The notes below the pieces were generated by a model. The model saw only the letters and a program-made list of their open reading frames with translations. It did no database searches and had not been told where the DNA came from. A stretch of DNA of 64,000 nt from Vulcanococcus sp. (GTDB lineage Bacteria; Cyanobacteriota; Cyanobacteriia; PCC-6307; Cyanobiaceae). This document shows, one piece after another, positions 46,869 through 64,000 of this stretch. The position numbers and the translations under genes were made by a program. Position 1 is the first letter of the stretch. Each line of letters begins with the position of its first letter. Where the stretch lies: assembly GCA_019264575.1 (NCBI GenBank), contig JAHUZV010000010.1, forward strand, positions 18,013-82,012. The letters run 5' to 3'.

Positions 46869-49388
46869 TCAGTGCCCTGCGCCTGATGCTGCACCGCGCC
46901 GACTCCCCCGCTCCCATGCCTGGCGGTAAAGATCTTCCAGCTCCCGGGTGAAGCCGGCGCAGTCCATCAACGGCGAGGCCTGCAGTTCGGCGCGCAGGCC
47001 GCTGCGGATCGCCGCCAGCTGCTGAGGGTCGGCGGCGAGGCGTTGGGCGATGGCGATGTACTCCTCGGGGCTGCGGGCGATCCACTCAGGCCGGCCCAGG
47101 CTGGTGAGGATGCTGGCGCCGCCGCGGCTGGAGCTGCGCTCGCCGGCCAGGGTCACCAGCGGCACCCCCATCCACAGGGCATCGAAGCTGGTGGTGCCGC
47201 CGGCGAAGGGTGCGGTGTCGAGGGCGATATCGATCTGGCCGTAGGTGGCCATGTAATCCGGCCCGTTCTGATAGCCGATCAGGCTGATCCGATCGCTGGC
47301 CACACCGCGTTCGGCAAAGAACTCCAGCAATCCCTGGCGGGCTCGGGTTTCCTTGATATGGAGCACCAGGCGCGAGCCGGGCACGCTGGCCACCAGCTGG
47401 GCCCACAGCTCCCGCACCCCTTCGTTCACCTTCACGAAGTTGTTCAGGCTGCCAAAGCTGATCACCCCGCTGCTCAGGCAGGGGGGCGGCGCCACTAGGG
47501 GGATGGACACCACCGGCGGCGGCACGGCAAAACTCCACCAGCACCGCGGCAGGCGCAGCGGTTGTTCGCTGAAGGGCAGCGGCGAACCCTCGGGCGGATC
47601 GAGCACCCCATCGGTGATGCGGTAATCCATGGCGGCCAGGCCGGTGGTGCCCACATAGGCCAGATAGGTGATCTGCACCGGTGCCGGCTTGCGGGCAAAC
47701 AGCCCAGGCCGGCAGTCCCGGGCGTACATCGTTAGATCGACCAGCAGGTCGATTCCGTCGGCGCGGATCAGATCGGCCAGGGCCGCATCATTGAGCTGAT
47801 GTACCTCGCGCCACTGCTCCACGCGCTTGGCGATCTCGGTAGTCATCCCATCCTTGAGATAACGCGAGGAGTAGGCAAACACCTCAAAACGGCTGCGGTC
47901 GTGGTGTTCCAGTACCGGCAGCAGGAACCGCGCCACCGGATGCATCCAGAGATCAGGCGACACATAACCCACCCGTAGCCGCCGCGCAGCGGGATCACGG
48001 GCAACGGGATCACTGCGTAGGTCATCGAATTTGGCCTGGCAGAGGCGCCGTGTCTCGGCGGCCAGATCAGCATCACTGGCGCTGGGGCTGTAGTTGAGTG
48101 CGAACAAGTAGTTGGGCACAAAGTCGCGATCGTCCTGGCCCAGTTCGATGCCGCGGCGATAACTGGCGAGGGCCAGATCCACCTTGCCCTGATCGAAATA
48201 GGCGTTGCCGAGGTTCGAGTGGGCGGCGGCGAAATCGGGTCTGATCCGAATCGCTTCCTGCAGCGCTTGTTCTGCCAGGTCGGGATAACTGGCCTCGCGC
48301 TGGGCATTGGCCAGATTGGCCAGGGCCTCGGCGTAATCCGTGCGTTGGGCGATGGCCCGCTCAAAGATGGCGATGCTTTCGCTGTGGCGCCGCAGGTTGA
48401 GCAGGATGTTGCCCAGGTTGTTGAGCGCCTCTGGAAAGTCGGGTTGCAGTTCAAGCGCCAGGCGCAAGGCCGTTGCTGCCGGCTCGTACTGACCCAAAGC
48501 GTTGAGCACGTTGCCCTGGGTGAACTGCACTTGGGCGTTGCCGGGATCCAAGGCCAACGCCCGGGCGCTCCACTGCTGGGCGGCCTCGAGGTGGTAGGCG
48601 TCAAGTTCAAATTGCGCCAAGTTGGCGCAGGTTTCGGCCGCCATCGAAGCGTTGCCCGGATCGCTCGGCGGTGCCTGCTGCAGGGCGGCCTCAAAGGCCG
48701 CCATGGCCCCATCCAGATCGCCTTGGTTCTTGCGCGCTAGCCCCAGGTTGTTCCACGCCTCGGGAAACTGCGGTTGCAGGGCAAGGCAGCGCTCTAGCGC
48801 TTGCTTGGAGTCGGTCCAGCGGCCGAATCGCCCCAGGGCATCCGCCAGGTGAAACCAGCCCGGGGCATCACCTGGTGCCAGGGCCACCGCCTGTTCGGCC
48901 GCCGCCAGGGCCTGCTCGCGGCGGTTGCTGCGCAGCTCCATGGCGGCGAGCTTTTGCCAGGCGGGCACAAAATCGTTCTGGGCGCCCACCGCTTGGGCAA
49001 AGGTGGCCGCCGCATCGCTCCAGCGGCCATAGAGCTGGTAGAGATGCCCCAGGTTGTAGAGCGCCAACGCATCGCCTGGCTCCTGAGCCAAAGCGCGCTG
49101 GTACGCCTCCTCGGCCTCCTGGGGTCGCTGCAGATCCTTGAGGAGGTTCCCCAGGTTCACCCAATAAAACGGCTGAGCGCCTTCGCTCTGCGCAGCTCTG
49201 CGCAAGTGCTGGAGCGCGGCACTGGTATTCCCGCACTGGTGCTCCAGCAAGCCCAGGTAGTGAAGGGCCGCAGCGCTGCTGGGATCAGTCGCCAGGATCG
49301 CTTCATAGCCCTGCCGGGCCTGCTCCAGCTGACCCTGCTGATGCAGGGCAATCACTTCGGCCAGAGGGCCGCTCGGAACGAAAGCCAT
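46869..49388 (-). CDS. TPR protein with SPINDLY/O-GlcNAc transferase-type catalytic domain
   Basis: The 839 residues have about 12 tetratricopeptide repeats (NLGNLLKDLQRPQEAEEAYQ, ALYNLGHLYQLYGRWSDAA, NNLGNILLNLRRHSESIAIF and others) up to about residue 430. They are followed by a GT41-type catalytic domain (RLRVGYVSPDLWMHPVARFL, LVDLTMYARDCRPGLFARKP, PVQITYLAYVGTTGLAAMDY, APFAGGTTSFDALWMGVPLV). Such enzymes glycosylate Ser/Thr of proteins. I chose the ATG at 49388, ten bases after the methyltransferase stop. Its C-terminal end is copied in the fragment at 45156. Confidence 0.93.
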   Translation of the reverse strand: MAFVPSGPLAEVIALHQQGQLEQARQGYEAILATDPSSAAALHYLGLLEHQCGNTSAALQHLRRAAQSEGAQPFYWVNLGNLLKDLQRPQEAEEAYQRALAQEPGDALALYNLGHLYQLYGRWSDAAATFAQAVGAQNDFVPAWQKLAAMELRSNRREQALAAAEQAVALAPGDAPGWFHLADALGRFGRWTDSKQALERCLALQPQFPEAWNNLGLARKNQGDLDGAMAAFEAALQQAPPSDPGNASMAAETCANLAQFELDAYHLEAAQQWSARALALDPGNAQVQFTQGNVLNALGQYEPAATALRLALELQPDFPEALNNLGNILLNLRRHSESIAIFERAIAQRTDYAEALANLANAQREASYPDLAEQALQEAIRIRPDFAAAHSNLGNAYFDQGKVDLALASYRRGIELGQDDRDFVPNYLFALNYSPSASDADLAAETRRLCQAKFDDLRSDPVARDPAARRLRVGYVSPDLWMHPVARFLLPVLEHHDRSRFEVFAYSSRYLKDGMTTEIAKRVEQWREVHQLNDAALADLIRADGIDLLVDLTMYARDCRPGLFARKPAPVQITYLAYVGTTGLAAMDYRITDGVLDPPEGSPLPFSEQPLRLPRCWWSFAVPPPVVSIPLVAPPPCLSSGVISFGSLNNFVKVNEGVRELWAQLVASVPGSRLVLHIKETRARQGLLEFFAERGVASDRISLIGYQNGPDYMATYGQIDIALDTAPFAGGTTSFDALWMGVPLVTLAGERSSSRGGASILTSLGRPEWIARSPEEYIAIAQRLAADPQQLAAIRSGLRAELQASPLMDCAGFTRELEDLYRQAWERGSRRGAASGAGH

Positions 49389-49398
49389 GCCGCGTGGC

Positions 49399-50031
49399 CT
49401 AGGAGGCTGCGGCTGGGTCTGTCCCGTCGAGAGGGAGATCAAACAGAGCGGCCAACTCGGGGTCTGGGTTGCCGTTGAAGGTGATCAGATTGAGCTCAAG
49501 GTTGCCTTGCTGGCAGAACATTGGGCTGAAGCCGCTGGCTTCCACCACATTGGCCAGGGTGCGGCGGCTGAAGCCGGTGCGAGGGGCATAACCATCCTGG
49601 CCACTTTGCGCGATGATGCCGCCGTGGCCATACAGCACATCAAGCGGTGTAATCGGACCCATCGGTGATTCGTAAAGCAGGCCATCCAGATCGATCCCCT
49701 GCTGCACGCAGACGAGCATCAGCTCCTGCAGATCGGGCACGATGATGTGGGCCAACCCCCCTGGCTTGAGCACATGACGAAAGCCAGCAAGAACACCAGG
49801 CACTTCATGCTGGCGCACGTGTTCAAGGTTGTGAGAGCAATACACAGCATCGAATTGCTGAGGCTCTAAAGATGTGAGTTCTCTGACATCCAGAACGAGA
49901 TCAGCTCCAACATCTGGATTGAGACCAAGCAATACATGCTCAAAGGTGCCGTAGGCCCCAGGCAGCGGGATACCGCCAGAGTGACCACCAACATTGAGGA
50001 CGCGCCTCTGCCGCTCCGTTCCTTCCGACAT
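49399..50031 (-). CDS. class I SAM-dependent methyltransferase
   Basis: The 210-residue protein reads VLNVGGHSGGIPLPGAYGTF, LVLDVRELTSLEPQQFDAVY, CSHNLEHVRQHEVPGVLAGF and HVLKPGGLAHIIVPDLQELM, the layout of small methyltransferases that act on sugars or surface glycans. Further on, GFSRRTLANVVEASGFSP is typical of the same group. It starts the minus-strand group with the TPR/OGT and glycosyltransferase-like genes and is divergent from the giant gene. Confidence 0.88.
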   Translation of the reverse strand: MSEGTERQRRVLNVGGHSGGIPLPGAYGTFEHVLLGLNPDVGADLVLDVRELTSLEPQQFDAVYCSHNLEHVRQHEVPGVLAGFRHVLKPGGLAHIIVPDLQELMLVCVQQGIDLDGLLYESPMGPITPLDVLYGHGGIIAQSGQDGYAPRTGFSRRTLANVVEASGFSPMFCQQGNLELNLITFNGNPDPELAALFDLPLDGTDPAAAS

Positions 50032-50268: not shown

Positions 50269-53200
50269 ATGCCTGCAACCGTTGCGACTCTCATCGCCAG
50301 CCTGAGCAGCGTGGGCCTGGGCGGATCGAGGCCTTGCAAGGACCCCTGTAGCAGCCCACCTAGTACGGCAGCGGCGCTTGCGCCCGACTTGGTGGTGTTG
50401 AGCCCCGAGCTCGTGGCTTCGGTGCCGCAAGAGGAGCTCGCCGGCGCGCGGGTGGTTGTTCTCGATACGGCCCAGGAGGTGATGGGCCAGATCGGGGCTG
50501 CCCTCCAGGCCCATCCGGGCACCACCGTGGTCCGCGTGATCAGCCACGGCGAACCGGGTGCGCTGTTCTTGGCGGGCCAGCGGTTGAGCCGCGAAACGTT
50601 GCGGCTGCAGTCCGCAGCCATGGCCGGCTGGCGGCAGCACCTGGCTCCGGGTGCCGAGATCTTGCTTTACGGCTGCTGCGTGGCAGCAACGCCCGAGGGG
50701 CGGAGCTTTGTTCACCTGATCGCGGAGCTCACGGGAGCCGAGGTGGCCGCCAGCGCAAGCCTCACCGGTTCGGCCGCCAAGGGCGGCGATTTGTCGCTTG
50801 GCTACACAACCGGGCCGATTGGGGCGATCACCGAGCGCTTCTTGCAGGCGTGGGATCAATCCGGCCTGATCTTGGTGGCTCCGGTGTTCACCAGCGCTGC
50901 CAGCGCCAATTTCAGCCGCACCGTGGCCGGATCGTTTGCTGTGGCCGCCTCGGGGCTGCCGACGTATTCGATCGCTCCAGCGACCTTATTTGAAAGCAGT
51001 TTCATCACCCTGCCATCGGATTGGGTGCTGAGCAATGCCCAAATCAGCGGTGGTTCGGTTGCGCTCAACCCGGCCACCCCTGACACCAACGGCACGCTCA
51101 TCCTGCCCAAACTGGGAACCACCAGCCCCGGCTCTTTCACCGCATCGTTTGACTACACCGCTGGCAATGTCACCGTCGGCGGTACCAAGGCAAGCGGAAC
51201 CAGCTTCAACTACGGCGCGCTCAGCGCTAGCACAGCCAGCGCGCTCGGCATGGTCGGCAGCAATGGCCTCGCGGTCAGCTTCCTTGAGGCCTATACCAAG
51301 GCGGGGGCTGTCACCACAACAGTGCCCTCGTCCGTTGAGGTGCGCTGGAACGGCACGCCCATCGCCTCGGCACCCGTCAGTTTTGGCAGCGGGGCCAAGC
51401 CGGTGCAGATCAAGCTCGATGCGGCCAATCTGCTCATGGTCAGCTATGACCACGCCCAGGTTTTAAACACGAACCTGAGCGGCCTGGTGAACGCCGCCGA
51501 CCGCTCCAACTGGCAGTTCGCCCTGGGCTCGGCCAACACCAGCCAGAACGCCAGCAGTCACAGCATCGACAACCTCGCGATCGTGACCAACGGGGGGTTG
51601 CCCGCTGGTCTTTCGCTCAATCCAACGACTGGAGAGATCTCCGGTACACCCACCGCGGCGGCGAGCGCGGGCCAGCACGTGTTCAACCTGGTGGCCACCA
51701 ATGCCGATGGCGCCACCTCGCAACCCTTCAGGCTGAACCTGGCCTCTGGTGCGCCGGTTTTCAGCAGCTCCTCCACCCAGGCAACGCTACCTGGAGTGCC
51801 CACCACGATTGCCATCACGGCCGCAGGGAGCGCCGGCCCCACCACCTACAGCGTGGCGCCCCAGACCCTGATCAGCACCACGCTGGCGAACGCTGCTGCC
51901 CTGCCCGCCGGCGCCTACATCAATGGCACTAGCCGATTCAATAGCGGTGCGATTGAACTCACCCAGAATAAGAACAATCAAACCAGCTGGGTTCAATTCC
52001 TGGGCCAGGGTGATCAGAACCCCACGCCATTTACGGCCAGCTTCAACTACAAGGTGGGCGGCGGCACCACGGTTGGCGGCGGCGGCATCAGCTTCAACTA
52101 TGGCAACCCCGGCGATCACAGCAAGGGCCTGCGTGTTGTTATCACTGAACTGCCAACCAGCGCCACCAGCAATGCCAACCTGGAGGTGGCTGTTTGGCTG
52201 AATGGCCTGCGGGTTTCTGGTACCACTGTCGCCAACCCCTTTACCGGCGCCCTTTATTCAAGCAATACCTACTTACCCGTCAAGCTGGCAATGAGCGCCG
52301 AGGGGCGCCTGCAGGTGTCGGTCAACAATGTGTTGGCCTCTGACACAACCAATGTCACTGGTTGGCAGACCACCGATAAGTCGTTGTGGGCCTTCGGCTT
52401 CACGGGCACCACCGGCGCTAGCAACAACAACTTCCACACCATTAAGGATGTGGTGATCGGCACCAATGGGGTGCTGCCGCCGGGTCTGACCCTCGACCCC
52501 GCCACCGGGGTGATCAGCGGCCAGCTGGGCATCGGCACCGCGGTGGACCCCTACGTCCATGTCACGGCCACCAATGCCGCGGGCAGCACCACCCAGCTCG
52601 TGAAGCTGGATGTGAGCGCCAGCAACACCCTGCCCGGCCAGCGCCCGGGCACCGGCACCAGCCTCGGCGGCCCCGATGGCCTTGGCGCCACGGGCGAGCA
52701 GTTCCGCAACCTGAGCGCCTTCGCGGCGCTCACCACCGACGGCCAGGTGAAGGTGTGGGGCAACACCCTCAACGGCGGCCTCCAGGCCGAGGCCCCCACC
52801 GGCACCGGCTACACCGTGATCACCTCCAACGAGAGGGCCTTCGCCGCGTTGAAAAACGACGGTTCGATCGTCTCCTGGGGCTTTGGCGCCAACGGCGCCA
52901 CGGGCGAGCCCACGGGCACCGGCTACCAGATGATTTCGGCCAGCCGAGACGCCTTTGCCGCCATCAAAAACGACGGCAGCATCGTCGCCTGGGGCAACAC
53001 CGCCAACGGTGGCTCCTTTGGCACCATCAGCACCAGCTCGCCCACCGGCACCGGCTACCTGCGCATCTTCGCCAACGGTGGCGGCTTCACGGCCCAAAAG
53101 AGTGACGGCACGATCCGAGCTTGGGGCAACAGCAGCAGCATCGGCTCGGGCGCGCCTCCCGTGCCGCCCACAACGAATTTCACCCGCGTCACGGCCAACG

Positions 53201-56200
53201 GCTACCAGGCGAGCACCAACTCCTTCGGCGCGTTCGCGGGCCTCGACAGCAAGGGCTCCATCATCACCTGGGGTTCGACAGCTACTGCCCCCACCGCGGG
53301 CAAACCCGGCAGCTCTGGCTGGCAGGACATCGTCCCCACTGCCAAGGCCTTCGCGGCGATCGACAGCAACGGCACCATCGCTGCCTGGGGCGATTCGGCT
53401 TTCGGCGGCGGTAGCACCTCAACGTCACCGACCCTCACCTACCTCAAGGCCCCCACCGACAGCGGCTACCGCCAGCTGTACGGCAACAGCTCGGCCTTTG
53501 TGGCGGTCCGCCAGGACGGCTCCCTGGCCGCCTGGGGCAACTCGATTAATGGCGGCTCCGGCGCCCCCACCGGCACGGGCTACACCCAGGTGTACTCCAC
53601 GCTCAATTCGTTTGCGGCCCTGAAGGCCGACGGCAGCATCAGCGTTTGGGGCAGCGCCCTAGAGGGCGGCAACATCAAGGTGGCCCCACTGGCCACGGCT
53701 ACCGGTTACACCAACCTGTTCAGTAGCCAGGGCGCCTTTGCGGCCCTCAAGGGCGACGGCTCGGTCACCGTGTGGGGTGACACCAGCATGGGCGGCACGG
53801 GCGGCCCCACCGGCACCGGCTGGACTGAGATCACCAGCTCGGGCACGGCGTTTGCCGCCCGCAAAACCGATGGCAGCCTCTATTCATGGGGCTCCTCGCT
53901 CACCGGAGGCACCGGCGCCCCCACGGGCAGCAACTACCTCACGGTGCAGTCGCCCACCTTGGCGAAGCCCTATTTCCCGCAGGCCGCCGGCGCCCCGGTG
54001 AACCTCGCCATGAACCAGACGGTGCCCTCGCAACTGTTCCTGGGCATCCAGGGCGATGGCCTCAACTTCACGATCACCAACGGCAAGCTCCCCGGCGGCT
54101 TGAAGCTCGATGCCGCCACCGGCTGGATCCATGGCAACCCGGCCGAGCCAGGCACCTTTCCGCTCACGATTAACGCCACCAGCGCGGCCGGCAGCGTTAC
54201 CCAGAACTACACCCTGCGGGTGGAAAGTTCGCTGTTGCCCAACCAGCGCCAGGGCACGGGCGCCGTTTACAGCATCGGCTCGGGCACGGAAGTCGTCAAC
54301 ACGAACGCCTATGCCGGCCTCACCGCCAACGGCAGCATCTACGCCTGGGGCCAAGGCCTGGTTGGCGGCACGGGTGCGCCCACCGGCACCGGCTACACCC
54401 AAATCACCTCCAATGCCGATGCTTACGCCGCGCTGAAAGTTGACGGCAGCATCAGCGCCTGGGGTAAGAGCACCTCCGGTGGCACCGGTAGTAGCGGTGT
54501 GCCCACCGGTACCGGCTACACCAAGATCTACGCCTCACGGTCAGCCTTCGCTGCCCTGAAGACCGATGGCAGCATCACCGCCTGGGGCAACACCGTAACG
54601 GGCGGCAGCGGGGCGCCCAGCGGCACCGGCTTCACCAAGATCTACACCACCACCGAAAGCTTTGCCGCGCAAAAGGCCGACGGCAGCATCACGGTGTGGG
54701 GCGATACCGCCAATCTGGGAGGTAAGACCCCAACAGGCACCGGCTACACCAGCATTACCCCCAATGCCGGCGCCTATGCGGCCCTCACAAGCAACGGCAG
54801 CATCACCGCCTGGGGCAACACCGGTACGGGCGGCAGCGGCGCGCCTGCGGGCACCGGCTACACCAAGATTTTTGCCAGCCCCAATGCCTACGCGGCGCTC
54901 AAAAACGATGGCAGCATCGCCGTGTGGGGCGCCACCGCCACCGGTGGAACCAACGCCCCAACCGGAACCGGCTTTGTCGATATCTGGTCTTCGGGCACCG
55001 GCTTCGCCGCGCTGAAGACCGATGGGTCCCTCGCTTCGTGGGGCGCTTCGGGCGCCAATGGCACCGCTACACCCACGGGCACCGGCTACACCCAGGTTTT
55101 TTCAACCCAAGGATCCTTCGCAGCCCTGAAAGCCGATGGATCCATCGTGTCGTGGGGCGCCACCCTCAATGACGCTGGCTCCGGCGCGCCCACGGGCACC
55201 GGCTACACCACCATCTACAGCAGCCAAAAAGCCTTCGCCGCCCTGAAGGCCGATGGCAGCATCACCACCTGGGGCCATTCCGACTCTGGGGGCAGCGGCG
55301 CGCCCGCAGGCACGGGCTACACCCAGATCTTCAGCCGCTCAAGCTCCTTTGCCGCCATGAAGGCGGACGGCACCGTTTCCGTCTGGGGCCAGTTAACTCA
55401 AACCTCAAAATGGTCGAGCCTGGTGCCGTTTGGCTCGATCCAAAACGCCACCGCGGTGGTGCCCGCCCGCGAATTCGGCCTCACCGGCAACCTGCCCGCC
55501 GCCCGAAACGGCACCTCGCTGGCCACCCAGGCCCTGGGGATGAACGGCACGGCGGCCTACCAGGTGGGCGCCAACAATGGCCTTGGCCTGGGCAGTGCCA
55601 TCACCGCCGGCAGTTTGCCGGACGGACTCAGCCTCAATGTGGCCACTGGCTATTTGGAAGGCACGGCCACCAAGAGCGGCACCTCCAACTTCACGGTCAC
55701 CACCTACAACGGCAGCGGCCAATCGAGCCAGGCCTATTCACTCACGGTGACGGGTTCCAGCACCTCCACCGCCGCGCCCACGTTCAGCACGGCCAAACCG
55801 ATCGGCTACGCCAACTACGCCATCGGCAAACCGGCCAGCTACGACCTGAGCGCGGTTGCGACTCCAACAACTGTCCCGCTGAACTATTCGCGGATCGCCG
55901 GCACCCTGCCCCCCGGCATGACGCTGCAAACCAACGGCACAGTGGCCGGTACCCCCACCACACCCGGCACCTACCAGTTCACCCTGGCCGCCAGCGACAG
56001 CAAGGGCGTTGCAACGCAGACCTTCACCATCGAGGTGAGCGGCGACACCCCCAACCAGCGCCCAGGCCAGTACTCGGCCATCGCGGCTGGTAGCAGCGGC
56101 AGTCAGGGCATCAACGAGTCCGCCTTCGCCGCCCTTAGGCCCAACGGCAGCATCGTGACCTGGGGCGACAGCGCCGCTGGTGGCGCCGGTGCGACCGGCG

Positions 56201-59200
56201 TGCCGACCGATCTGGGCTATGTGCAGATCGCCCAAACCAACAAAGCCTTTGCGGGCCTGCGCTACGACGGCGCCATCCAGTCTTGGGGACACACCGCTTC
56301 GGGCGGACTGGGTGCGCCCACCGACAGCGGCTACACCCGGCTGTTCTCCAATGGCTCTGCCTTCGCCGCCCTCAAGGCCAACGGCAGCATTGTCTCCTGG
56401 GGAGCCGACAACGCCGGCGGCAGCGGCGAACCCACGGACACGGGCTACAGCCAGATCTTCACCAACAGCGAGAGCATGGTGGCCTTGAAGACCGACGGCA
56501 GCCTGGTTGCCTGGGGCAACTCGGCGACCGGTGGCTCCAGCGCCCCCACCGGCACCGGCTACGTCACCATCACCGCCAACGCCACCGCCTTCGCCGCCCT
56601 GAAGGGTGATGGATCGCTCTGGGCCTGGGGCAACAGCACCAATGGCGGCCTGCAGCCCACCCTGCCCACCAACAACAGCTACACCGCCATCTATTCCAAT
56701 CCCAACGGCTTCGCGGCGCTGCGAGCCGATGGCACCATCGCCACCTGGGGCAACACGCTCGCGGGCGATGTGCTCTTCACCGGCGGCAACAACTTCGTCA
56801 GCATTGCGTCTAACAGTGGGGCCTTCGCGGCGCTGCGGGCCGATGGCACCGTCACGGCGTGGGGCAATTCATTCAAGGGCGGCACCGGCACCACCGGCAC
56901 CGGCTTCACCGCCCTCTATTCCACCGATAGCGCCTTTACGGGCCTAAAGGCCGATAGCTCGATGGCCTCATGGGGCAACAAAGTCGCTGGCGGCGATAGC
57001 ACGCCCGCTGGGACAGGTTATATCACGATCGTTTCCAACCCCCAGGCGTTCACCGCCCTCAAGAACGATGGCACGGTCGTCTCGTGGGGGAACGCCAGCT
57101 TCGGCGGCAAGGCCAAGGCGCCCGCGGGCAGCCTTTTCACGCAGGTCTTCTCAACCTCTTCGGCGTTCGTCGCCCAAAAAACCGATGGCAGCCTGGTGGC
57201 CTGGGGCAACTCCACCTCCGGCGGCTCAGGCGTGCCCACGGCCACGGGCCTGACAGTCAGCTCGGCCCGGGCGGCGATCCCCTATCAGCCAGCGGGCACC
57301 AGCGGCGAACTGCCCACCGCCTACCTGGGCAAGCCGATCGGTCCGGACGGCGGCGCCGGCCCCGCGGCCTATCAGGTGGGTGCCTACAGCCAGGGGTCCT
57401 ACTCCCGCATCACCGCCGGCGCCTTGCCGGGAGGATTGGCCCTCGACGCAGCCACCGGGTTCCTGTTCGGCACGCCCGCAGGCCTGGCGGGCACCTACAC
57501 GTTCACCATCACCACCACCAGCGCGGTGGATTCAACGGTCCAGGCGTACACGCTGGATGTGAAAGATCCGCTGGCGGTGATTGCGCCCAACCAGCGGGTG
57601 GGCAGCGGGGCGAGTTTTAGTAACGGGACGGGCCAATCCGCCAGAAACCAAACCGCGTTTGCCGCGTTAAAAACCGACGGGTCGATCACCGCGTGGGGTG
57701 ACAGCACTGCGGGTGGCAGTGGCGCGCCGACCGGCACGGGCTTCACCCAGATTTATTCCTCCGGCTCTGCCTTTGCCGCCCTGAAAGCCGACGGCTCGAT
57801 CACCGCCTGGGGAAGCACCAGTGCCGGTGGCAGCAACGCACCAACCGGCACGGGCTACACCCAGATTTATTCCACGGGCAGTGCGTTTGCCGCGTTAAAA
57901 GCCGACGGCTCGATCACCACCTGGGGCGATGCCACTTACGGAGGCACCGGCGGTGCAACCGGCACCGGTTTCACGCAGATGTATTCCTCCGGTCGTGCGT
58001 TTGCCGCTTTGCAGGCTGACGGTGCCATCACCGCGTGGGGCGATGCCAATTACGGCGGCACCGGCGCTCCCACCGGCACGGGTTATACGCAGGTTTATTC
58101 CACGGGTTCAGCGTTTACCGCCCTGAAAGCCGACGGCTCGCTGACCGCGTGGGGCAGCAACAGTTCCGGTGGCACCGGCGCACCCACCGGCACGGGTTAC
58201 ACGCAGGTTTATTCCACTGGCTCAGCCTTTACCGCCTTAAAAGCCGACGGCTCAATCACCGCCTGGGGCAATACAGCGAATGGTGGCAGCGGCGCTCCAG
58301 TTGCCGCAGGCTTTAAGCAGGTGTTTTCCAACACCAATGCATTCGCGGCATTGAATGGAAACGGGACGATTACAGCTTGGGGCTCTAGCCTGCATGGAGG
58401 CAAAGGTGCACCAACCACCTCGGGCTATAAGGAGATTTATTCCACCGGCAACGCGTTTGCCGCGTTGAAAGCCGACGGGTCAATCACCGCCTGGGGTGAT
58501 AGCAGTTCGGGTGGCACAGGCGCGCCAGCGCCCACGGCCACAGGCTTCACCAAGATTTATTCCAGCGAAGGTGCGTTTGCCGCATTGACAGCCGATGGCT
58601 CGATCACGGCATGGGGCGGTAGCGGTTTTGGTGGCAGCGGAGCGCCTGCCGGCACGGGCTTCACGCAGATCTATTCCACAAATAGTGCTTTTGCCGCGCA
58701 GAAAGCCGACGGGTCGATCACCGTCTGGGGCAGTGCCGCTAACGGTGGCAGCGGCGCGCCAGCCGGAAGTTTCGCCACCGTGCAATCGGCCCTGGTGAGC
58801 GATCCCGAGTTCGCCGCCTTCCCGGCCAACTCCGCCCTATCCACCAAAGCGAACCTGCCCTTTTTCGCCAACCTGGGGGCCCAGGGCGTGGGCTCTCGCT
58901 ACGAGATCGCGGTAGGCAACCTGCCAACCGGCCTCACGCTGGATCCCACCACCGGAGTGCTGAGCGGTATTCCCACGGCTTCAGGCAACTACTCGTTCAT
59001 TTTGGCGGCCTCCAATCCTGCTGGCGTTGACACGCAAGTCTTCAACTTGGCGGTGGATGCAAATGCCACTGCCCCAGTGTTCGTTAGTGCCAAAACAACC
59101 ACTGCCAAGGTAGGCACATCAAGCCAGTTCCAAGTCAGCGCTCAAGGCACTGGCGTGAGTTATGCCCTTTCAAAAGGCACGTTGCCCTCGGGGCTCACAC

Positions 59201-62200
59201 TGAATGCCTCCACGGGTCTGATCTCCGGAACACCGGCAAACGTCACCAACGGAACCCCGAGCGGTGGTATTCACACGCTGGTGATCACGGCCACCAACAA
59301 CGCTGGCAGCACCACACAGGATTTCACGCTCACACTGAATCAAGCGCCAGAGATCACCAGCACGGCCTCGCTCAACGGCACACCCGGGGCGTCGGTGAAC
59401 ATCAAGCTGGACGCAACCGGTTTTCCTAAACCAACCTTCAAGGTCGTCTCTGGAAGCCTGCCAAATGGCCTCAGTCTGTCCACCAGTGGTGAGCTGAGCG
59501 GTATTGCCAATGCCGCATCGCTTGGCTCAACAACATTAATCATCGAGGCCTCAAACAACATTGGCACCGCTGCCAATAAGACCTTCACCCTCACCATGGC
59601 CGCGATGGCGGCCACGGCGTTGAAGATCGTGGCCCCGTCTGCTGTGGTGAGCGGCAAAGCCAATACTGTCGAGGTTCAAGCTGTCGATGCCTACGGCAAC
59701 GTCGACAAAAACGCCACCGGCACGGTGACGCTCCAGCCGACAGGTGCGGGCAGCCTGGAACTCACGGGCAGCGGCGGCCTCACCGCCAACCTGATCAACG
59801 GCGTGGCCACCTTCCAGGGGCTGGTTTACAAGGCTTCGGCCGATAACGAAGAGTTCAAGTTAGGTGCCTCCGCCACCGGCTTGAGCAGCGCACCCACGCA
59901 GGTGATCGGCGCCGATGTTGTGGCAACCGAGTTCCAAATTCTTGGCACTCCCAGCGCCTCCACGTTGGAGTCAGGCGTCGCCAACAGCCTCAGCGGTCTG
60001 CGTCTGGTGGCCGTCGATGCCGCTGGACGCATTGACACCCAGTGGCTGGGCAGTGGTCAAACCGTCAAGCTCACCCTGACGAAGCCAAACGGCACATCAC
60101 TGCTTGGGTCCGTCAACGCACTGGCGCTCGCCAGCGGCAACGCCCTGAGCGATACAGACACCAACGCCACCACGATCACCCTGGGCAGCAATGCCATCCG
60201 CGCCGATGGAAGCATCGATCTGGGCGCGCTGCAGCTGCAATACACCAATCCAAGCGGCACGACCACCGAGGCCCTGGCGCTGAAGGCCGAACGCATCGGT
60301 GGCAGTGACCCAGTGCTCACAGGAGTGCTGTCATCGAGCCTCACGAGCAGCAGCACGGTTGCTACCAACAGTGCTCCTCAGCTCAATCTGGATCTAGCGA
60401 ATGCGCCAGCGGCATACAGCGAAAACGGCACGGCCATCGCGGTTGTTGGTTCTGGCGCCAGCGTCAGCGACGCTGACACCACCCTGCAATCGCTGCAGGT
60501 GGCGATCACGAATGTACAAGTGGGTGATCTGCTGGCGTTGGCGACCACACCCAGCGGATTAACGGCGAATTACGACACATCCAGTGGCTTGCTGTTGATC
60601 AAGGCGTCTGCCAACGCATCACCAACGCTGGACGACTTCACCAGCGCCCTGAAGGAGGTGCGCTACTCCAACAGTTCCGAGAACCCCAACACCACGCCGC
60701 GCCAGATCACGGTGACGGCCAATGACGGCAGCGGCCTCTCCAGTGCAACCGGCACGGCTACCCGCACCCTCACGGTGAGTGCAGTCGATGATCCAACGAC
60801 CCTCACCAACCTGCCGGGCTCGATCAACGCAACGGAAGACACCCAGGCGCCGCTGAATCTGGGCTCTCTGGTGCTGAGCGATCTCGATAGTGGCGATACA
60901 CAGCAAACGCTGACCCTGTCAGTCACAAAGAACGCCGCGCCCAGTGGCAGCCTCAGCGCCAGCAACGGCCCAGGCGTCACCGTCACCGGCAGTAACAGTG
61001 CTCAAGTCAGCCTCGAGGGCACGATTAGTGATCTCAATAACTATCTGAGAACCAGTGGAGTTCTGAACTTCACGCCCGCCAGCAACGCCAATGGCAGCCA
61101 TGCATTGAGCTTTGCCGTGGTTACTGGCGGTAGCAGCCAGAGCCTCGGCAGCACGACGATCAACGTGGCGCCAGTGAACGATCCAGGGGTGTTCAGTGGT
61201 GTTCCAGCCGCCGGCAGTGTGGCGAGCCTGCGCCATGGCGTGGCCACAACCCTGCAGAGCTTGATCGGCAATACACCGATCAGCGTGGCTGATTTAGACG
61301 TCGATCAACACGCCAACCGAGGTGCTGCCGGCCGCACGGATCTCACCCTCACCGTCACCAACGCCAGCCTGGCTGGCCTGAGCGATGGTGTTCAGAACGG
61401 CGGCGCCACGCTCACGATCAACAGCGCCACGAGCTGGCTGGTGAATGGCACATTGGCGCAGATCAATGCGGTGTTGGCCGCTCCAACAATCACGCTGCAA
61501 TCGGCAACGGCCGGTGCAGTGAACTTGAGCCTGCAGCTGAACGATGGCTCAAACGTCACTGGATCCACCACCACTGCAGCTGTTCAGTTCCTGGCAGCCA
61601 GCGATCCCATTCTCATCAACAGCGCCAGCAGTTCGGCCCGTTCGATCAGTGCAGGTTTTGACGAAAGCCTGAGCTTCCTAACGATCACCGATCCCGATGC
61701 CGGCAGCAATCCGCAAACCTTCACGCTGTCGATCAGTGATCCCGGCAATGCAGCCACACTCTCAGGCTTAACGGATGCCAATAGCGGAACCAGTGGCATT
61801 CAGCTCACTGGAACCGCAGCCCAGATCAATGCCCAGCTGGCTGATGGCCGCTACAAGGCATCAGCACTGGGGAGCTCCAGCCTGCAACTGAGCCTCAGCA
61901 ATGGTCTGGCACCAGCGATCAACAGCACCGCCAACTTCACGGGGAGCAATCCGCTTCCCACCCTCACCCAGATCAGCAACCTCACGGGAGCCAAGGAAGA
62001 TCAACCGTTTGCGATCTCCTTCTCCGATCTTGCAGCCGTCGCCAATGACGCTGATCAGGGCGGCAGCGTCGAAGGCTTCGTCGTCAAGGCTGTCAGCAGC
62101 GGCACCCTCAAGATCGGCACCACAGAGCAGCTTGCCACGCCTTGGGCAGCGAACACGAACGACAAGATCACACCGATCCTCAACGCCTATTGGAACGCAG

Positions 62201-63585
62201 CTGCCAACGCCAACGGAACTGGCGGCAGTGCAATCACGGCCTTCACCGTGACAGCGCTGGACAACAGCAATGGCGAATCCACCACACCTGTTGCCGTGAA
62301 AGTGGAGGTGAGCCCGGTGAATGACACACCGAGCATTGCTGGCCTTCCCGTTGGTGGCAGTTCTGTAAGCACCGGTATCAGCAGCGCCCTGGCCGATTTC
62401 ACCGTTGCCGATATTGACAGCAACGCTCTGACGCTGACTCTGCGGCCAGTGAACGGCAGCATCGGTGGCTTGACTGATGCCGAAAACAACCGCGAAGGCA
62501 TTCAGCTCAGCGGCACTGCAGCGCAGATCAACACAGCTATTGCCGCTGCAACATTCACGGCTGCAACCAGTGGGGCGGCCTCAATCAAGTTGCAGCTTGA
62601 GGATGGTGGTAGCGAAACCGTCTCAGACGTCTACAACCTCACGGCCACTGCAGTTAATAATCCGCCGACCCTGAGCACCCCTGGCTCCACGCGCAACATC
62701 ACCACGGGCGTGAGCGATGCGCTGAGCTACATCACCGCCAGTGATAGCGACGCGGGTCAGTCATTGACATTGACCCTCACGGCAACTGGCGGAACGTTCC
62801 GCAACGTTGCCGATGCCGATCTCAACAGCGCCGGCTTTCAGCTGAACGGAACTGCCAGTGCGATCAACGCCGCACTGGCGGCGGGTTCGTTTGTAGCCAG
62901 TGCTGATGGAGCAGCCAACATCACTGCCAGTGTCACTGATGGGGTGATCACGACCCCTGTCAGTGCCACTTACAACCTGAACGCCAGCAACGCGGCCCCA
63001 ACCCTCACCACGGTGTCAGCGCTGAGTGGTGCAAAAGAGGATCTGGCGTTCACGATCACGGCTGCTGATCTGATGTCAGCAGCAAACGAGGCAGATCCGG
63101 GCGGCAACGTCGCCGGTTTTGTGGTCACAAGTGTGGATACCAACAAAGGCACGCTAAGGATCAACGGCAGTGTTTACGACGCTGCCAACAACAACCTGAT
63201 CAATGCTGACCGCAAGGCGGAGTGGACCTCGGCGGTTGCCAATAGCAACGGAGCGATTAGCGGCGCCTTTATGATCAAGGCGATCGACGATAGCAATCAG
63301 ACCTCAAGCTCTGCCGTAGCTGTCACGATCAATGTGGCGGCGGTGAATGATGCGCCGGCAGCGAATGGGTCGAACTACAGCATCTCAACCAACGAACTTA
63401 CCCCCACAGCAGGCGTAGTCGTCAGCACACTGCTGTCGTCTGGTCGCGGCACAGATATAGACAACGCCAATCTCGGCGTTGCTGTCACGGCCTTCAACGG
63501 GCGAGGCGCCTGGCAAGTTTCAACCACCAACGGCTCCAGCAGGACTGCACTTGGAACCTGTCAACCAGCAGCGCCCTGCTGTTGA
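50269..63585 (+). CDS. giant DUF4347 / RCC1-like repeat / cadherin-like surface protein, frame broken at its 3' end
   Basis: The open frame codes for 4438 residues. Residues about 38-200 are a DUF4347 domain (ARVVVLDTAQEVMGQIGAAL, VVRVISHGEPGALFLAGQ, ILLYGCCVAATPEGRSFV), typical of cyanobacterial giant extracellular proteins; no signal peptide is seen, which fits type I secretion. Two beta-sandwich lectin-like segments follow (about 235-440 and 530-740), with Ig-like domains. Then four modules start at about residues 788, 1322, 1927 and 2439, each with ten RCC1-like repeats and a closing Ig-like domain. After residue 2840 come further Ig-like and cadherin/VCBS-like repeats (TLTLTVTNASLAGLSDG, GAKEDQPFAISFSDLAAVAN). 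The frame stops early because of a frameshift near 63555. The role is probably adhesion or surface structure. Confidence 0.9.
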   Translation: MPATVATLIASLSSVGLGGSRPCKDPCSSPPSTAAALAPDLVVLSPELVASVPQEELAGARVVVLDTAQEVMGQIGAALQAHPGTTVVRVISHGEPGALFLAGQRLSRETLRLQSAAMAGWRQHLAPGAEILLYGCCVAATPEGRSFVHLIAELTGAEVAASASLTGSAAKGGDLSLGYTTGPIGAITERFLQAWDQSGLILVAPVFTSAASANFSRTVAGSFAVAASGLPTYSIAPATLFESSFITLPSDWVLSNAQISGGSVALNPATPDTNGTLILPKLGTTSPGSFTASFDYTAGNVTVGGTKASGTSFNYGALSASTASALGMVGSNGLAVSFLEAYTKAGAVTTTVPSSVEVRWNGTPIASAPVSFGSGAKPVQIKLDAANLLMVSYDHAQVLNTNLSGLVNAADRSNWQFALGSANTSQNASSHSIDNLAIVTNGGLPAGLSLNPTTGEISGTPTAAASAGQHVFNLVATNADGATSQPFRLNLASGAPVFSSSSTQATLPGVPTTIAITAAGSAGPTTYSVAPQTLISTTLANAAALPAGAYINGTSRFNSGAIELTQNKNNQTSWVQFLGQGDQNPTPFTASFNYKVGGGTTVGGGGISFNYGNPGDHSKGLRVVITELPTSATSNANLEVAVWLNGLRVSGTTVANPFTGALYSSNTYLPVKLAMSAEGRLQVSVNNVLASDTTNVTGWQTTDKSLWAFGFTGTTGASNNNFHTIKDVVIGTNGVLPPGLTLDPATGVISGQLGIGTAVDPYVHVTATNAAGSTTQLVKLDVSASNTLPGQRPGTGTSLGGPDGLGATGEQFRNLSAFAALTTDGQVKVWGNTLNGGLQAEAPTGTGYTVITSNERAFAALKNDGSIVSWGFGANGATGEPTGTGYQMISASRDAFAAIKNDGSIVAWGNTANGGSFGTISTSSPTGTGYLRIFANGGGFTAQKSDGTIRAWGNSSSIGSGAPPVPPTTNFTRVTANGYQASTNSFGAFAGLDSKGSIITWGSTATAPTAGKPGSSGWQDIVPTAKAFAAIDSNGTIAAWGDSAFGGGSTSTSPTLTYLKAPTDSGYRQLYGNSSAFVAVRQDGSLAAWGNSINGGSGAPTGTGYTQVYSTLNSFAALKADGSISVWGSALEGGNIKVAPLATATGYTNLFSSQGAFAALKGDGSVTVWGDTSMGGTGGPTGTGWTEITSSGTAFAARKTDGSLYSWGSSLTGGTGAPTGSNYLTVQSPTLAKPYFPQAAGAPVNLAMNQTVPSQLFLGIQGDGLNFTITNGKLPGGLKLDAATGWIHGNPAEPGTFPLTINATSAAGSVTQNYTLRVESSLLPNQRQGTGAVYSIGSGTEVVNTNAYAGLTANGSIYAWGQGLVGGTGAPTGTGYTQITSNADAYAALKVDGSISAWGKSTSGGTGSSGVPTGTGYTKIYASRSAFAALKTDGSITAWGNTVTGGSGAPSGTGFTKIYTTTESFAAQKADGSITVWGDTANLGGKTPTGTGYTSITPNAGAYAALTSNGSITAWGNTGTGGSGAPAGTGYTKIFASPNAYAALKNDGSIAVWGATATGGTNAPTGTGFVDIWSSGTGFAALKTDGSLASWGASGANGTATPTGTGYTQVFSTQGSFAALKADGSIVSWGATLNDAGSGAPTGTGYTTIYSSQKAFAALKADGSITTWGHSDSGGSGAPAGTGYTQIFSRSSSFAAMKADGTVSVWGQLTQTSKWSSLVPFGSIQNATAVVPAREFGLTGNLPAARNGTSLATQALGMNGTAAYQVGANNGLGLGSAITAGSLPDGLSLNVATGYLEGTATKSGTSNFTVTTYNGSGQSSQAYSLTVTGSSTSTAAPTFSTAKPIGYANYAIGKPASYDLSAVATPTTVPLNYSRIAGTLPPGMTLQTNGTVAGTPTTPGTYQFTLAASDSKGVATQTFTIEVSGDTPNQRPGQYSAIAAGSSGSQGINESAFAALRPNGSIVTWGDSAAGGAGATGVPTDLGYVQIAQTNKAFAGLRYDGAIQSWGHTASGGLGAPTDSGYTRLFSNGSAFAALKANGSIVSWGADNAGGSGEPTDTGYSQIFTNSESMVALKTDGSLVAWGNSATGGSSAPTGTGYVTITANATAFAALKGDGSLWAWGNSTNGGLQPTLPTNNSYTAIYSNPNGFAALRADGTIATWGNTLAGDVLFTGGNNFVSIASNSGAFAALRADGTVTAWGNSFKGGTGTTGTGFTALYSTDSAFTGLKADSSMASWGNKVAGGDSTPAGTGYITIVSNPQAFTALKNDGTVVSWGNASFGGKAKAPAGSLFTQVFSTSSAFVAQKTDGSLVAWGNSTSGGSGVPTATGLTVSSARAAIPYQPAGTSGELPTAYLGKPIGPDGGAGPAAYQVGAYSQGSYSRITAGALPGGLALDAATGFLFGTPAGLAGTYTFTITTTSAVDSTVQAYTLDVKDPLAVIAPNQRVGSGASFSNGTGQSARNQTAFAALKTDGSITAWGDSTAGGSGAPTGTGFTQIYSSGSAFAALKADGSITAWGSTSAGGSNAPTGTGYTQIYSTGSAFAALKADGSITTWGDATYGGTGGATGTGFTQMYSSGRAFAALQADGAITAWGDANYGGTGAPTGTGYTQVYSTGSAFTALKADGSLTAWGSNSSGGTGAPTGTGYTQVYSTGSAFTALKADGSITAWGNTANGGSGAPVAAGFKQVFSNTNAFAALNGNGTITAWGSSLHGGKGAPTTSGYKEIYSTGNAFAALKADGSITAWGDSSSGGTGAPAPTATGFTKIYSSEGAFAALTADGSITAWGGSGFGGSGAPAGTGFTQIYSTNSAFAAQKADGSITVWGSAANGGSGAPAGSFATVQSALVSDPEFAAFPANSALSTKANLPFFANLGAQGVGSRYEIAVGNLPTGLTLDPTTGVLSGIPTASGNYSFILAASNPAGVDTQVFNLAVDANATAPVFVSAKTTTAKVGTSSQFQVSAQGTGVSYALSKGTLPSGLTLNASTGLISGTPANVTNGTPSGGIHTLVITATNNAGSTTQDFTLTLNQAPEITSTASLNGTPGASVNIKLDATGFPKPTFKVVSGSLPNGLSLSTSGELSGIANAASLGSTTLIIEASNNIGTAANKTFTLTMAAMAATALKIVAPSAVVSGKANTVEVQAVDAYGNVDKNATGTVTLQPTGAGSLELTGSGGLTANLINGVATFQGLVYKASADNEEFKLGASATGLSSAPTQVIGADVVATEFQILGTPSASTLESGVANSLSGLRLVAVDAAGRIDTQWLGSGQTVKLTLTKPNGTSLLGSVNALALASGNALSDTDTNATTITLGSNAIRADGSIDLGALQLQYTNPSGTTTEALALKAERIGGSDPVLTGVLSSSLTSSSTVATNSAPQLNLDLANAPAAYSENGTAIAVVGSGASVSDADTTLQSLQVAITNVQVGDLLALATTPSGLTANYDTSSGLLLIKASANASPTLDDFTSALKEVRYSNSSENPNTTPRQITVTANDGSGLSSATGTATRTLTVSAVDDPTTLTNLPGSINATEDTQAPLNLGSLVLSDLDSGDTQQTLTLSVTKNAAPSGSLSASNGPGVTVTGSNSAQVSLEGTISDLNNYLRTSGVLNFTPASNANGSHALSFAVVTGGSSQSLGSTTINVAPVNDPGVFSGVPAAGSVASLRHGVATTLQSLIGNTPISVADLDVDQHANRGAAGRTDLTLTVTNASLAGLSDGVQNGGATLTINSATSWLVNGTLAQINAVLAAPTITLQSATAGAVNLSLQLNDGSNVTGSTTTAAVQFLAASDPILINSASSSARSISAGFDESLSFLTITDPDAGSNPQTFTLSISDPGNAATLSGLTDANSGTSGIQLTGTAAQINAQLADGRYKASALGSSSLQLSLSNGLAPAINSTANFTGSNPLPTLTQISNLTGAKEDQPFAISFSDLAAVANDADQGGSVEGFVVKAVSSGTLKIGTTEQLATPWAANTNDKITPILNAYWNAAANANGTGGSAITAFTVTALDNSNGESTTPVAVKVEVSPVNDTPSIAGLPVGGSSVSTGISSALADFTVADIDSNALTLTLRPVNGSIGGLTDAENNREGIQLSGTAAQINTAIAAATFTAATSGAASIKLQLEDGGSETVSDVYNLTATAVNNPPTLSTPGSTRNITTGVSDALSYITASDSDAGQSLTLTLTATGGTFRNVADADLNSAGFQLNGTASAINAALAAGSFVASADGAANITASVTDGVITTPVSATYNLNASNAAPTLTTVSALSGAKEDLAFTITAADLMSAANEADPGGNVAGFVVTSVDTNKGTLRINGSVYDAANNNLINADRKAEWTSAVANSNGAISGAFMIKAIDDSNQTSSSAVAVTINVAAVNDAPAANGSNYSISTNELTPTAGVVVSTLLSSGRGTDIDNANLGVAVTAFNGRGAWQVSTTNGSSRTALGTCQPAAPCC
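52695..53947 (+). repeat. RCC1-like repeat module 1 (ten repeats)
   Basis: Ten tandem coding repeats, each with the core FAALK-x-DGSI-x-x-WG and a PTGTGY-type link, follow the opener LPGQRPGTGTSLGG. Unit length is about 36-45 codons and varies most here (repeats 3-6). The WG motifs read VKVWG, IVSWG, IVAWG, IRAWG, IITWG, IAAWG, LAAWG, ISVWG, VTVWG and LYSWG. Confidence 0.9.
54283..55440 (+). repeat. RCC1-like repeat module 2 (ten repeats)
   Basis: Ten repeats follow the opener LPNQRQGTGAVYSIG. The WG motifs read IYAWG, ISAWG, ITAWG, ITVWG, ITAWG, IAVWG, LASWG, IVSWG, ITTWG and VSVWG. The module closes with an Ig-like domain (AITAGSLPDGLSLNVATGYL) and one further Ig-like domain before module 3. 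Confidence 0.9.
56098..57264 (+). repeat. RCC1-like repeat module 3 (ten repeats)
   Basis: Ten repeats follow the opener TPNQRPGQYSAIAAG. The WG motifs read IVTWG, IQSWG, IVSWG, LVAWG, LWAWG, IATWG, VTAWG, MASWG, VVSWG and LVAWG. The closing domain is Ig-like (RITAGALPGGLALDAATGFL). Confidence 0.9.
57631..58785 (+). repeat. RCC1-like repeat module 4 (ten near-identical repeats)
   Basis: Ten repeats follow the opener APNQRVGSGASFSNG. The WG motifs read ITAWG, ITAWG, ITTWG, ITAWG, LTAWG, ITAWG, ITAWG, ITAWG, ITAWG and ITVWG. Neighbouring units are much more alike in DNA than in modules 1-3, for example the two adjacent units at about 58060-58270, and codons such as TTA, AAA and TTT are more frequent. 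This suggests recent expansion or gene conversion. Confidence 0.9.
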
Positions 63586-63864
63586 GCAGCAGCACCCAGG
63601 TGCGTTATGTGCCTGACGGCACTGGCAGCGAAAGTGGAGCCTCGATCAGCTATCTCGCCTGGGATGGCAGTGATAGCAATACCGCAGGCAGCAGGGTTGA
63701 CACCACGTTCAACGGTGGTGCCAGCGCTTTTTCCAGTGCCACCAATACGGCCTCGGTGACCGTGAGTATTGCCGATGATCCTCTAACCCTGAGCTTATCC
63801 CAGCCAGCCGCAGTTACTTATATTGAAAATGATCAGTATCTTCTCGATACTGGATTCATACTAG
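63558..63864 (+). pseudogene. continuation of the giant gene in a shifted frame
   Basis: From 63558 the sequence continues the giant protein in another frame: LSTSSALLLSSSTQVRYVPD, then GASISYLAWDGSDSNTAGSR and VTVSIADDPLTLSLSQPAAV, ending in TYIENDQYLLDTGFIL. This is typical cadherin/VCBS-like sequence. Adding one A in the GGAAC at 63553-63557 (to GGAAAC) would join the frames. It ends where the IS5-like element starts. Confidence 0.85.
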
Positions 63865-64000
63865 GGAGACTCTGGAAAACCCAAGCCTTCCGCGCGACAA
63901 TGGAGCCGTGATCGCAGGCCAGGACTGAGGTGATGGGCGGCAAGCAGCTCGGCTTCTCGGATTACGAGCTCACCACCGCCAAGAAGCAGACCAAACGCGA
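63861..64000 (+). mobile_element. IS5-family insertion sequence, left end
   Basis: CTAG at 63861-63864 followed by GGGAGACTCTGGAAAACCC looks like a target site and the left terminal repeat of an IS5-type element. A transposase start follows at 63933. The right end is outside the window, so the target duplication and the partner repeat cannot be checked. It interrupts the giant gene. Confidence 0.75.
63933..64000 (+). CDS. IS5-family transposase, 5' end only
   Basis: The first 22 residues (MGGKQLGFSDYELTTAKKQT) match the conserved N-terminus of IS5-type DDE transposases, which start K-Q-x-F-x-D-x-E-x-x-x-A-K-K-x-T. A GTG at 63930 is an alternative start. The gene runs off the window. Confidence 0.85.
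   Translation, partial: MGGKQLGFSDYELTTAKKQTKR

Follow-up and report, generated by a model that had tools for sequence, protein, structure and literature searches.

The stretch of DNA analyzed here (the window) comprises 64,000 nucleotides of contig JAHUZV010000010.1 from the cyanobacterium Vulcanococcus sp. (assembly GCA_019264575.1), and contains a giant open reading frame on the forward strand (50269-63585) that encodes 4438 amino acids. This protein carries four modules built of short RCC1-like repeat units, each with a Trp-Gly (WG) core. A first-pass annotation, made from the letters alone, had counted ten cores in every module and had noted that an (N/G)QRxG linker opens each of them. 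Both observations were borne out. The protein contains 40 WG dipeptides, every one inside four runs of ten, with tryptophans at residues 830-1207, 1360-1706, 1965-2312, and 2476-2820 (the first at nucleotide 52756 and the last at 58726); the linker motif occurs four times (residues 790, 1325, 1929, and 2441), once ahead of each run. On the evidence presented below, each module is probably a closed ten-bladed propeller of the BLIP-II type with a diversified putative binding face.

All features of the protein lie on the forward strand. At the N-terminus is a DUF4347 domain (PF14252; residues 57-196, nucleotides 50437-50856; E 9.8e-36), as in giant DUF4347 surface-type proteins. Module 1 (52636-53946) consists of a GQRPG linker, ten units spaced at 38-49 residues, and a closing strand found in an AlphaFold model of module 1 and its Ig-like domain; a He_PIG Ig-like domain (PF05345) follows at 53977-54222 (E 1.8e-15). 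Modules 2 (54241-55449; NQRQG linker) and 3 (56053-57264; NQRPG linker) also have ten units each by WG count, with their ends placed at putative closing strands read from the tail sequences. Module 3 is followed by one He_PIG domain (57319-57561; E 3.1e-10), and module 2 by two (55555-55752, E 3.9e-11; 55798-56040, E 2.6e-13). Module 4 (57589-58785) has an NQRVG linker, ten units spaced at 38 residues with one at 40, and a closing strand at residues 2835-2839 in its AlphaFold model. It is followed by He_PIG at 58879-59055 (E 1.1e-11) and by further He_PIG downstream, where the segment beyond this first domain gave two matched stretches (E 7.5e-23). He_PIG was thus matched in five of five segments tested between or after the modules, and the earlier statement that an Ig-like domain closes each module needs correction only for module 2, which has two. 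When the own genome (2.67 Mb) was searched with the modules, modules of this type were found at one place only.

The repeat unit and its predicted fold

Core-to-core spacing over the 40 WG cores was 37-49 residues with a mode of 38, a wider range than the 36-40 residues given at first. The protein matched RCC1_2 (PF13540) far from chance (E 2.9e-45) and WD40_RLD (PF25390) at E 3.5e-43, the latter with 148.7 bits against a cut-off of 150. A Pfam scan at E up to 1 returned seven families, including the N-terminal DUF4347, He_PIG, and RCC1_2 repeats, and no PF00415, Asp-box, BNR, or Vps10 was among them. A PF00415 search of the own genome also gave no match, a result that carries no weight, as no control genome gave one either. 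The unit has the xWG core of the RCC1/BLIP-II superfamily, and it is shorter, as the annotation had remarked, than the 50-residue blade of classical RCC1. The proper comparison, however, is with BLIP-II, whose blade of about 39 residues has three strands and a short helix (PMC10817188; for the strands also PMC6121496). When a profile was built from 56 ten-unit modules (four from the window and 52 of 69 found in relatives) and compared with PDB sequences, BLIP-II was the top match, with homology over its length (E 7e-25), and HERC, UVR8, and RCC1 ranked lower. Because of this match and the three-stranded blades in the module 4 model, we conclude that the short unit is a BLIP-II blade and not a shortened RCC1 blade. 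The number of blades differs: seven in BLIP-II, and ten units in each of the four modules. A unit profile also returned 10+10+10+10 on the window protein, but it was built from the same 40 units and its count is not independent.

Structure prediction of a single module, which the first-pass annotation had proposed as a check, was carried out for module 4, whose units are more alike (67% identity) than those of the other three modules. The AlphaFold model was confident (pLDDT 89.8, pTM 0.87, with 363 of its 427 residues scoring at least 90) and regular, with no sign of the open, irregular repeat that the annotation had named as evidence against a defined fold. In this model, DSSP assigned three strands, of 6, 6, and 5 residues, and one short helix of three residues to a unit. 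Strands A, B, and C are all present in each of units 2-10, strand A is missing from unit 1, and after unit 10 comes a lone A-type strand at model residues 398-402, giving nine A, ten B, and ten C strands in addition to the lone one. The divergent module 1, with its long insertions, was modeled together with its Ig-like domain (pLDDT 80.2, pTM 0.76), and its model repeats the strand layout of module 4, the closing strand falling at model residues 438-441. Since strand A of a propeller blade pairs with strand B of the same blade, the lone strand should on topological grounds pair with unit 1, and in doing so this C-terminal strand would complete unit 1 and close the ring. In many relatives, too, the first unit lacks a canonical strand A and a tail ends the run (GVVSFADPF in cyanobacterial modules, for example); the tail is less clear in modules of Bathymodiolus symbionts.

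When the models were compared with the PDB by Foldseek, BLIP-II gave the best matches to both (E 5e-11 for module 4 and 2e-11 for module 1). Module 4 was aligned with five BLIP-II chains over 235-278 columns at a root mean square deviation (rmsd) of 5.8-7.4 and a TM(target) of 0.55-0.60, and module 1 was aligned with BLIP-II over 290-331 columns at 7.3-9.0 and 0.54-0.56. For orientation, idealized rings, with blade spacing taken from general knowledge of propellers, were compared with a seven-fold ring. A ten-fold ring gave an rmsd of 5.5-7.4 and a TM of 0.59-0.61, an eight-fold ring 2.3-3.1 and 0.76-0.83, and a straight array 15-20 and 0.32-0.33; seven-fold, eight-fold, and straight arrays are all far from the Foldseek values observed. 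In a structure search of BFVD, the top match was a Megaviridae RCC1-repeat protein (TMq 0.68).

Several points weigh against a closed ring of exactly ten blades. Idealized nine- and eleven-fold rings score close to the ten-fold one, and a five-fold ring gives an rmsd of 7.2-9.0 and a TM of 0.53-0.55, although its blades overlap and it is not a real model. The closing strand sits where confidence drops (block means fall from 89 to 54 in module 4 and from 85 to 49 in module 1), and the alignments given to AlphaFold were made up wholly of ten-unit modules. Closure was read from strand order and Foldseek numbers rather than from coordinates; of the defined fold that the annotation had suggested, the regular model speaks for the fold, and the closing of the ring is the more tentative part. 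Moreover, the closing-strand pattern is not general, because some relatives (such as L064, L069, L077, L079, and L155) have a first unit with a canonical strand A and a short tail.

Variable loops and the BLIP-II contact sites

Within modules, the units differ mainly in columns 6-7, which lie between strands A and B, and in columns 23-26, after WG; the tryptophan is invariant, and G16, G22, and F9 are nearly so within the modules compared. In the predicted fold, the A-B loop and the post-WG loop would share one face, opposite the conserved B-C turn (DGS). The variable loops, which the first-pass annotation had not noted, point to function, and BLIP-II offers an outside comparison. Its contacts with TEM-1 and Bla1, taken from PMC10817188 with the printed 'Tyr19' understood as Tyr191, match the chain at one fixed offset in 21 of 21 residues checked, four of which served to set the offset. 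When the contact residues were placed on the unit columns via the WG and ALK anchors, 20 of 22 fell in the six variable columns, which account for 42 of the 268 residues (hypergeometric p 1.4e-16). The loops that vary here are the loop positions that BLIP-II uses for binding, and this overlap of variation between units with BLIP-II contact positions, in two loops, is what is new in this analysis.

Nonsynonymous (pN) and synonymous (pS) differences between units were counted in 91 modules, with two TGA-recoded modules left out. The pN of the variable columns exceeded overall pS in 65 of the 91 modules, and the pN of the other columns did so in none (0/91). Among modules with at least 65% unit identity, the corresponding counts were 36/39 and 0/39. 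Medians over the 91 modules were 0.30 for pS, 0.54 for pN in variable columns, and 0.09 for pN in other columns; in the window's own modules, pN of the variable columns was above overall pS in 4/4. A locus in genome G175 (L135; G175:C1:3297000-3316900) presents the pattern in its sharpest form. When 17 regular units from both arrays are compared, DNA differences are confined to nine of the 42 codons, and the other 33 show none. These nine comprise the codons of the six columns, a further two immediately ahead of columns 6-7, and one behind GG. The varying codons have up to six forms, frequently two or more bases apart, with pN at 0.40-0.43 in the variable columns and overall pS at 0.03-0.05. 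Both arrays of this locus lie within an open frame of 36883 amino acids.

The best-surviving alternative accepts the propeller but attributes the loop variation to relaxed constraint or a mutational hot spot instead of selection for binding. Two points favor it: the six columns were picked after the fact as the most variable, which inflates their pN, and synonymous change is also raised in them (median pS 0.41, compared with 0.28). The codon counts have further limits. Within the variable columns themselves, pN exceeded pS in just 46 of 91 modules and in one of the window's four, where change is near saturation, and the unit pairs that enter the counts are not independent. Two lines of evidence are hard to square with this explanation, and we regard it as unlikely. 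At L135, 33 of the 42 codons are identical throughout while the variable ones often lie two or more bases apart, and the BLIP-II contacts that coincide with these columns were not used in choosing them.

The preferred reading, a closed ring with a binding face, can be put as follows. Each blade of about 38 residues would be formed by three strands and a short helix, with the C-terminal strand supplying the strand A that unit 1 lacks. Together, the loops at columns 6-7 and 23-26 of all blades would make up a ring-wide putative binding surface, some 60 residues in size, on which diversifying selection would act; the blade core would be held uniform, and ring closure would hold the blade number at ten. 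Four such rings, spaced by Ig-like domains, could give the giant DUF4347 surface-type protein several different grips. That there is one binding face, that selection diversifies it, and that several rings serve as several grips we infer from the loop positions, the codon counts, and the layout. Nothing suggests a class A beta-lactamase as the ligand of the window's rings. A broader proposal, to which we give about even credence, is that a widespread bacterial ten-bladed family serves as a variable-receptor scaffold, with the backbone homogenized, the count reset to ten, and the codon cassettes of the face loops kept different, at some 60 contact residues per ring. L135, with units almost identical in DNA outside the face-loop codons, would be the far end of this pattern.

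A diversity-generating retroelement was considered as the diversifier and was not supported: RVT_1 (PF00078) had no match in genome G000, and the one match in G175, the genome of L135, is 0.7 Mb away from the array.

Unit counts in relatives and the making of ten

A profile search of the protein and its relatives with counting of units, the second check that the annotation had proposed, showed a strong preference for ten. With a four-module query, 78 loci were obtained from the best 80 of 146 candidates; 75 were tallied, and three with in-frame TGA (L021, L031, and L073) were set apart. In all tallies, runs of one or two units were skipped and runs cut by a source end were kept separate (10, 1, 1, and 1 in the four groups). 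The unit profile found 95 complete runs of three or more units in the first set, of which 70 had 10 units, five had 20, and one had 30. The freely varying counts that the annotation had named as a contrary outcome did not appear, with 70/95 runs at ten and 6/95 at 20 or 30. There were, nevertheless, 19 runs of other lengths (3, 4, 6, 7, 8, 9, 11, 14, 17, and 18), and these count against a fixed number. As the query had ten units, short runs were possibly under-sampled, whereas runs beyond ten were not disfavored.

This bias was controlled by searching 291 Cyanobacteriia genomes with a one-unit profile (33 units), and 11 of them, the own genome included, were positive at E 1e-6. The resulting second set comprised 14 regions from the ten other genomes and three regions of G008 and G018 that were known beforehand. 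In these 17 regions, 11 of 14 complete runs had ten units. G018 contributed one run of ten and G008 one degenerate run of 3; without these two genomes the count was ten in 10 of 12, the two exceptions being a 9 that begins near a contig start and a 4 close to the end of a contig. Because L137 duplicates L138, and L131 closely resembles L133, the second set has fewer independent cases than runs. At E 1e-10, the one-unit profile was positive in 9 of 191 genomes of Bdellovibrionota, the phylum of the Oligoflexia metagenome-assembled genome (MAG) G326. Here, only 6 of 14 complete runs in 11 regions had ten units, and the remaining 8, none of them 10, 20, or 30 (18, 19, 12, 7, 5, and three of 4), are the main source of non-ten counts and weigh further against a fixed number. 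In the class of the Shewanella genome G327, 1 of 369 genomes was positive at the same threshold, and because it was G327 itself, the class gives no unbiased count. A module 4 search was positive in 3 of 60 genomes and a four-module profile search in 3 of 25 of the genus, the own genome included each time.

Unit counts depended in part on the profile. An iterated profile gave 90 complete runs in the first set, with ten units in 65 by matches alone or in 67 with gap filling, and it merged some adjacent tens (L012 and L028). In the second set the eleven runs of 10 became nine, with two others (L137 and L138) at 11. By hand reading, the 4+6 of L087 is one ten; the 6+3 of L089 (Lampropedia hyalina) is also a ten, with four units lacking WG; the 7+14 of L061 (Psychromonas) is a 20 in which a frame change splits one unit; and L059 has ten WG cores with partial units at the flanks. 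Other departures stood: 9 units were read in the third run of L028, L032, L039, and L031 and 8 in L034, and L049 is a true 11. In L157, each of the two tails has one additional WG unit (11 and 20), and L154 and L070 have 18 units with degenerate tails that possibly hold two more. With TGA read as glycine, the runs in L021, L031, and L073 have 10, 9, and 10 units, and a further run of 4 is cut. L021 is assigned to a Flavobacteriaceae MAG, and its contig may be misbinned from a recoded lineage. Taken together, ten is a strong preference with exceptions and not an invariant, and to this extent the earlier suggestion that the number is kept holds.

We then asked how the units of different modules are related. 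In 93 ten-unit modules, including the window's four, identity over the first 31 columns of units 2-10 (4278 module pairs) was 52.5% between units of the same index and 52.2% between units of different index. Since same-index units are no more alike, ten was apparently not inherited as ten fixed units. Unit identity within modules had a median of 62% and reached 85%, and in 65% of module pairs both modules were more alike internally than to each other. By these comparisons the units appear homogenized within modules, through new amplification or gene conversion, with the count remaining at ten. Such homogenization at a constant count fits the prediction of a structural constraint on number, although by itself it does not exclude gene conversion that preserves the count. 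Against full re-making, 18% of module pairs had register 0 as their best cyclic register, where 10% is expected by chance, which indicates some memory; this excess comes partly from orthologs and the atypical first unit. Modules 1-3 of the window match modules of L036, L040, and L033 position by position at 64-76%. These three loci are in MAGs filed as Opitutae and Kuenenia, indicating either misbinning or transfer across phyla.

Two other architectures were weighed against the closed ten-bladed ring. In the first, each run of ten would form two tandem five-bladed propellers. Such an arrangement is in print: a sentence of PMC2716378, which cites Stevens and Paoli 2008, states that ten highly conserved repeats are present in some members of the RCC1 superfamily and likely form one ten-bladed or two five-bladed rings. 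It is topologically possible as well, in that strand A of each of units 2-10 could close a five-bladed ring. Yet Foldseek fits 235-278 columns, or 6 to 7 blades, of module 4 onto a single BLIP-II ring (TM(target) up to 0.60), which two separate rings of five would not be expected to allow, and module 4 shows no shift in spacing between units 5 and 6. Moreover, only 1 of 123 complete runs in the three sets has five units (L159, ahead of a longer one; another three are truncated at a source end), and the contiguous 20s (5) and 30 (1) fit multiples of ten, although 12, 14, 17, 18, and 19 also occur. We therefore hold the paired rings to be quite improbable. An open or helical beta-solenoid, with ten units through common descent alone, is slightly less probable still: the three-strand units are regular and there is the weak register-0 excess (18% vs 10%), but sequence homology to BLIP-II, a closed ring of seven blades (E 7e-25), a strand order with a lone A-type strand after unit 10 and none in unit 1, and the equal same-index identity (52.5 vs 52.2%) all speak against it.

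Relation to known propellers and neighboring genes

The closest known system is BLIP-II, to which both Foldseek models and the module profile lead. It differs in being one small secreted protein, where four rings lie in a chain of 4438 residues here, and it binds its target with a Ki in the picomolar range (PMC6121496). A class of ten-repeat proteins is already in print as a suggestion through the PMC2716378 statement; that sentence, by which alone the window modules can be compared with the Stevens and Paoli proteins, gives no survey of counts, no structure, and no variable face. In the literature searched on RCC1 and ten-bladed propellers, mostly non-subscription and in part excerpts, we found no account of a variable face or of a unit-count survey. 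The Vps10 domain of sortilin was described in 2009 and 2013 as the only observed or known ten-bladed propeller (PMC2716378; PMC3797127). It would share its ten blades with the modules, but belongs to the Asp-box family, and sortilin was not among the 50 PDB matches listed for either model. Freshly amplified propellers, with near-identical blades derived from one as here, are described in PMC9218822, where RCC1/BLIP-II makes up 10% of the set. In those proteins, unlike here, blade number varies after amplification (3, 4, 6, and 9 in one chitinase group) and is often above the lineage median; in the modules studied here, ten recurs. A five-bladed fragment of WRAP did not pair into a ten-bladed ring (PMC6805158).

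The modules would thus represent a natural family, in many phyla as filed, that mostly holds to ten even as its blades are homogenized, and for this reason the determinants of blade number can be tested on repeats that are nearly identical. Should the face prove to be truly diversified, the family would also offer a natural library of large ring-shaped binders, built on a scaffold related to seven-bladed BLIP-II.

As to the surroundings of the modules, the region preceding module 1 (51589-52635) has a weak L-type lectin-like similarity (E 4e-5, below the Pfam cut-off). No PADLOC family of anti-phage defense was matched at E 0.01. DUF4347 domains and Ig-like repeats occur in giant surface proteins, and the protein is probably displayed at the surface. 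Near the giant frame, on the opposite strand (46869-49442), is a gene for a TPR protein with Glyco_transf_41, which we take to be of the O-GlcNAc-transferase type and which might modify the giant protein. At its 3' end (window positions 63381-64000) the giant frame is broken: the frame is lost near 63585, the coding pattern continues in another frame, and the contig ends where the window does. The last bases of the window resemble the start of an IS-type transposase.

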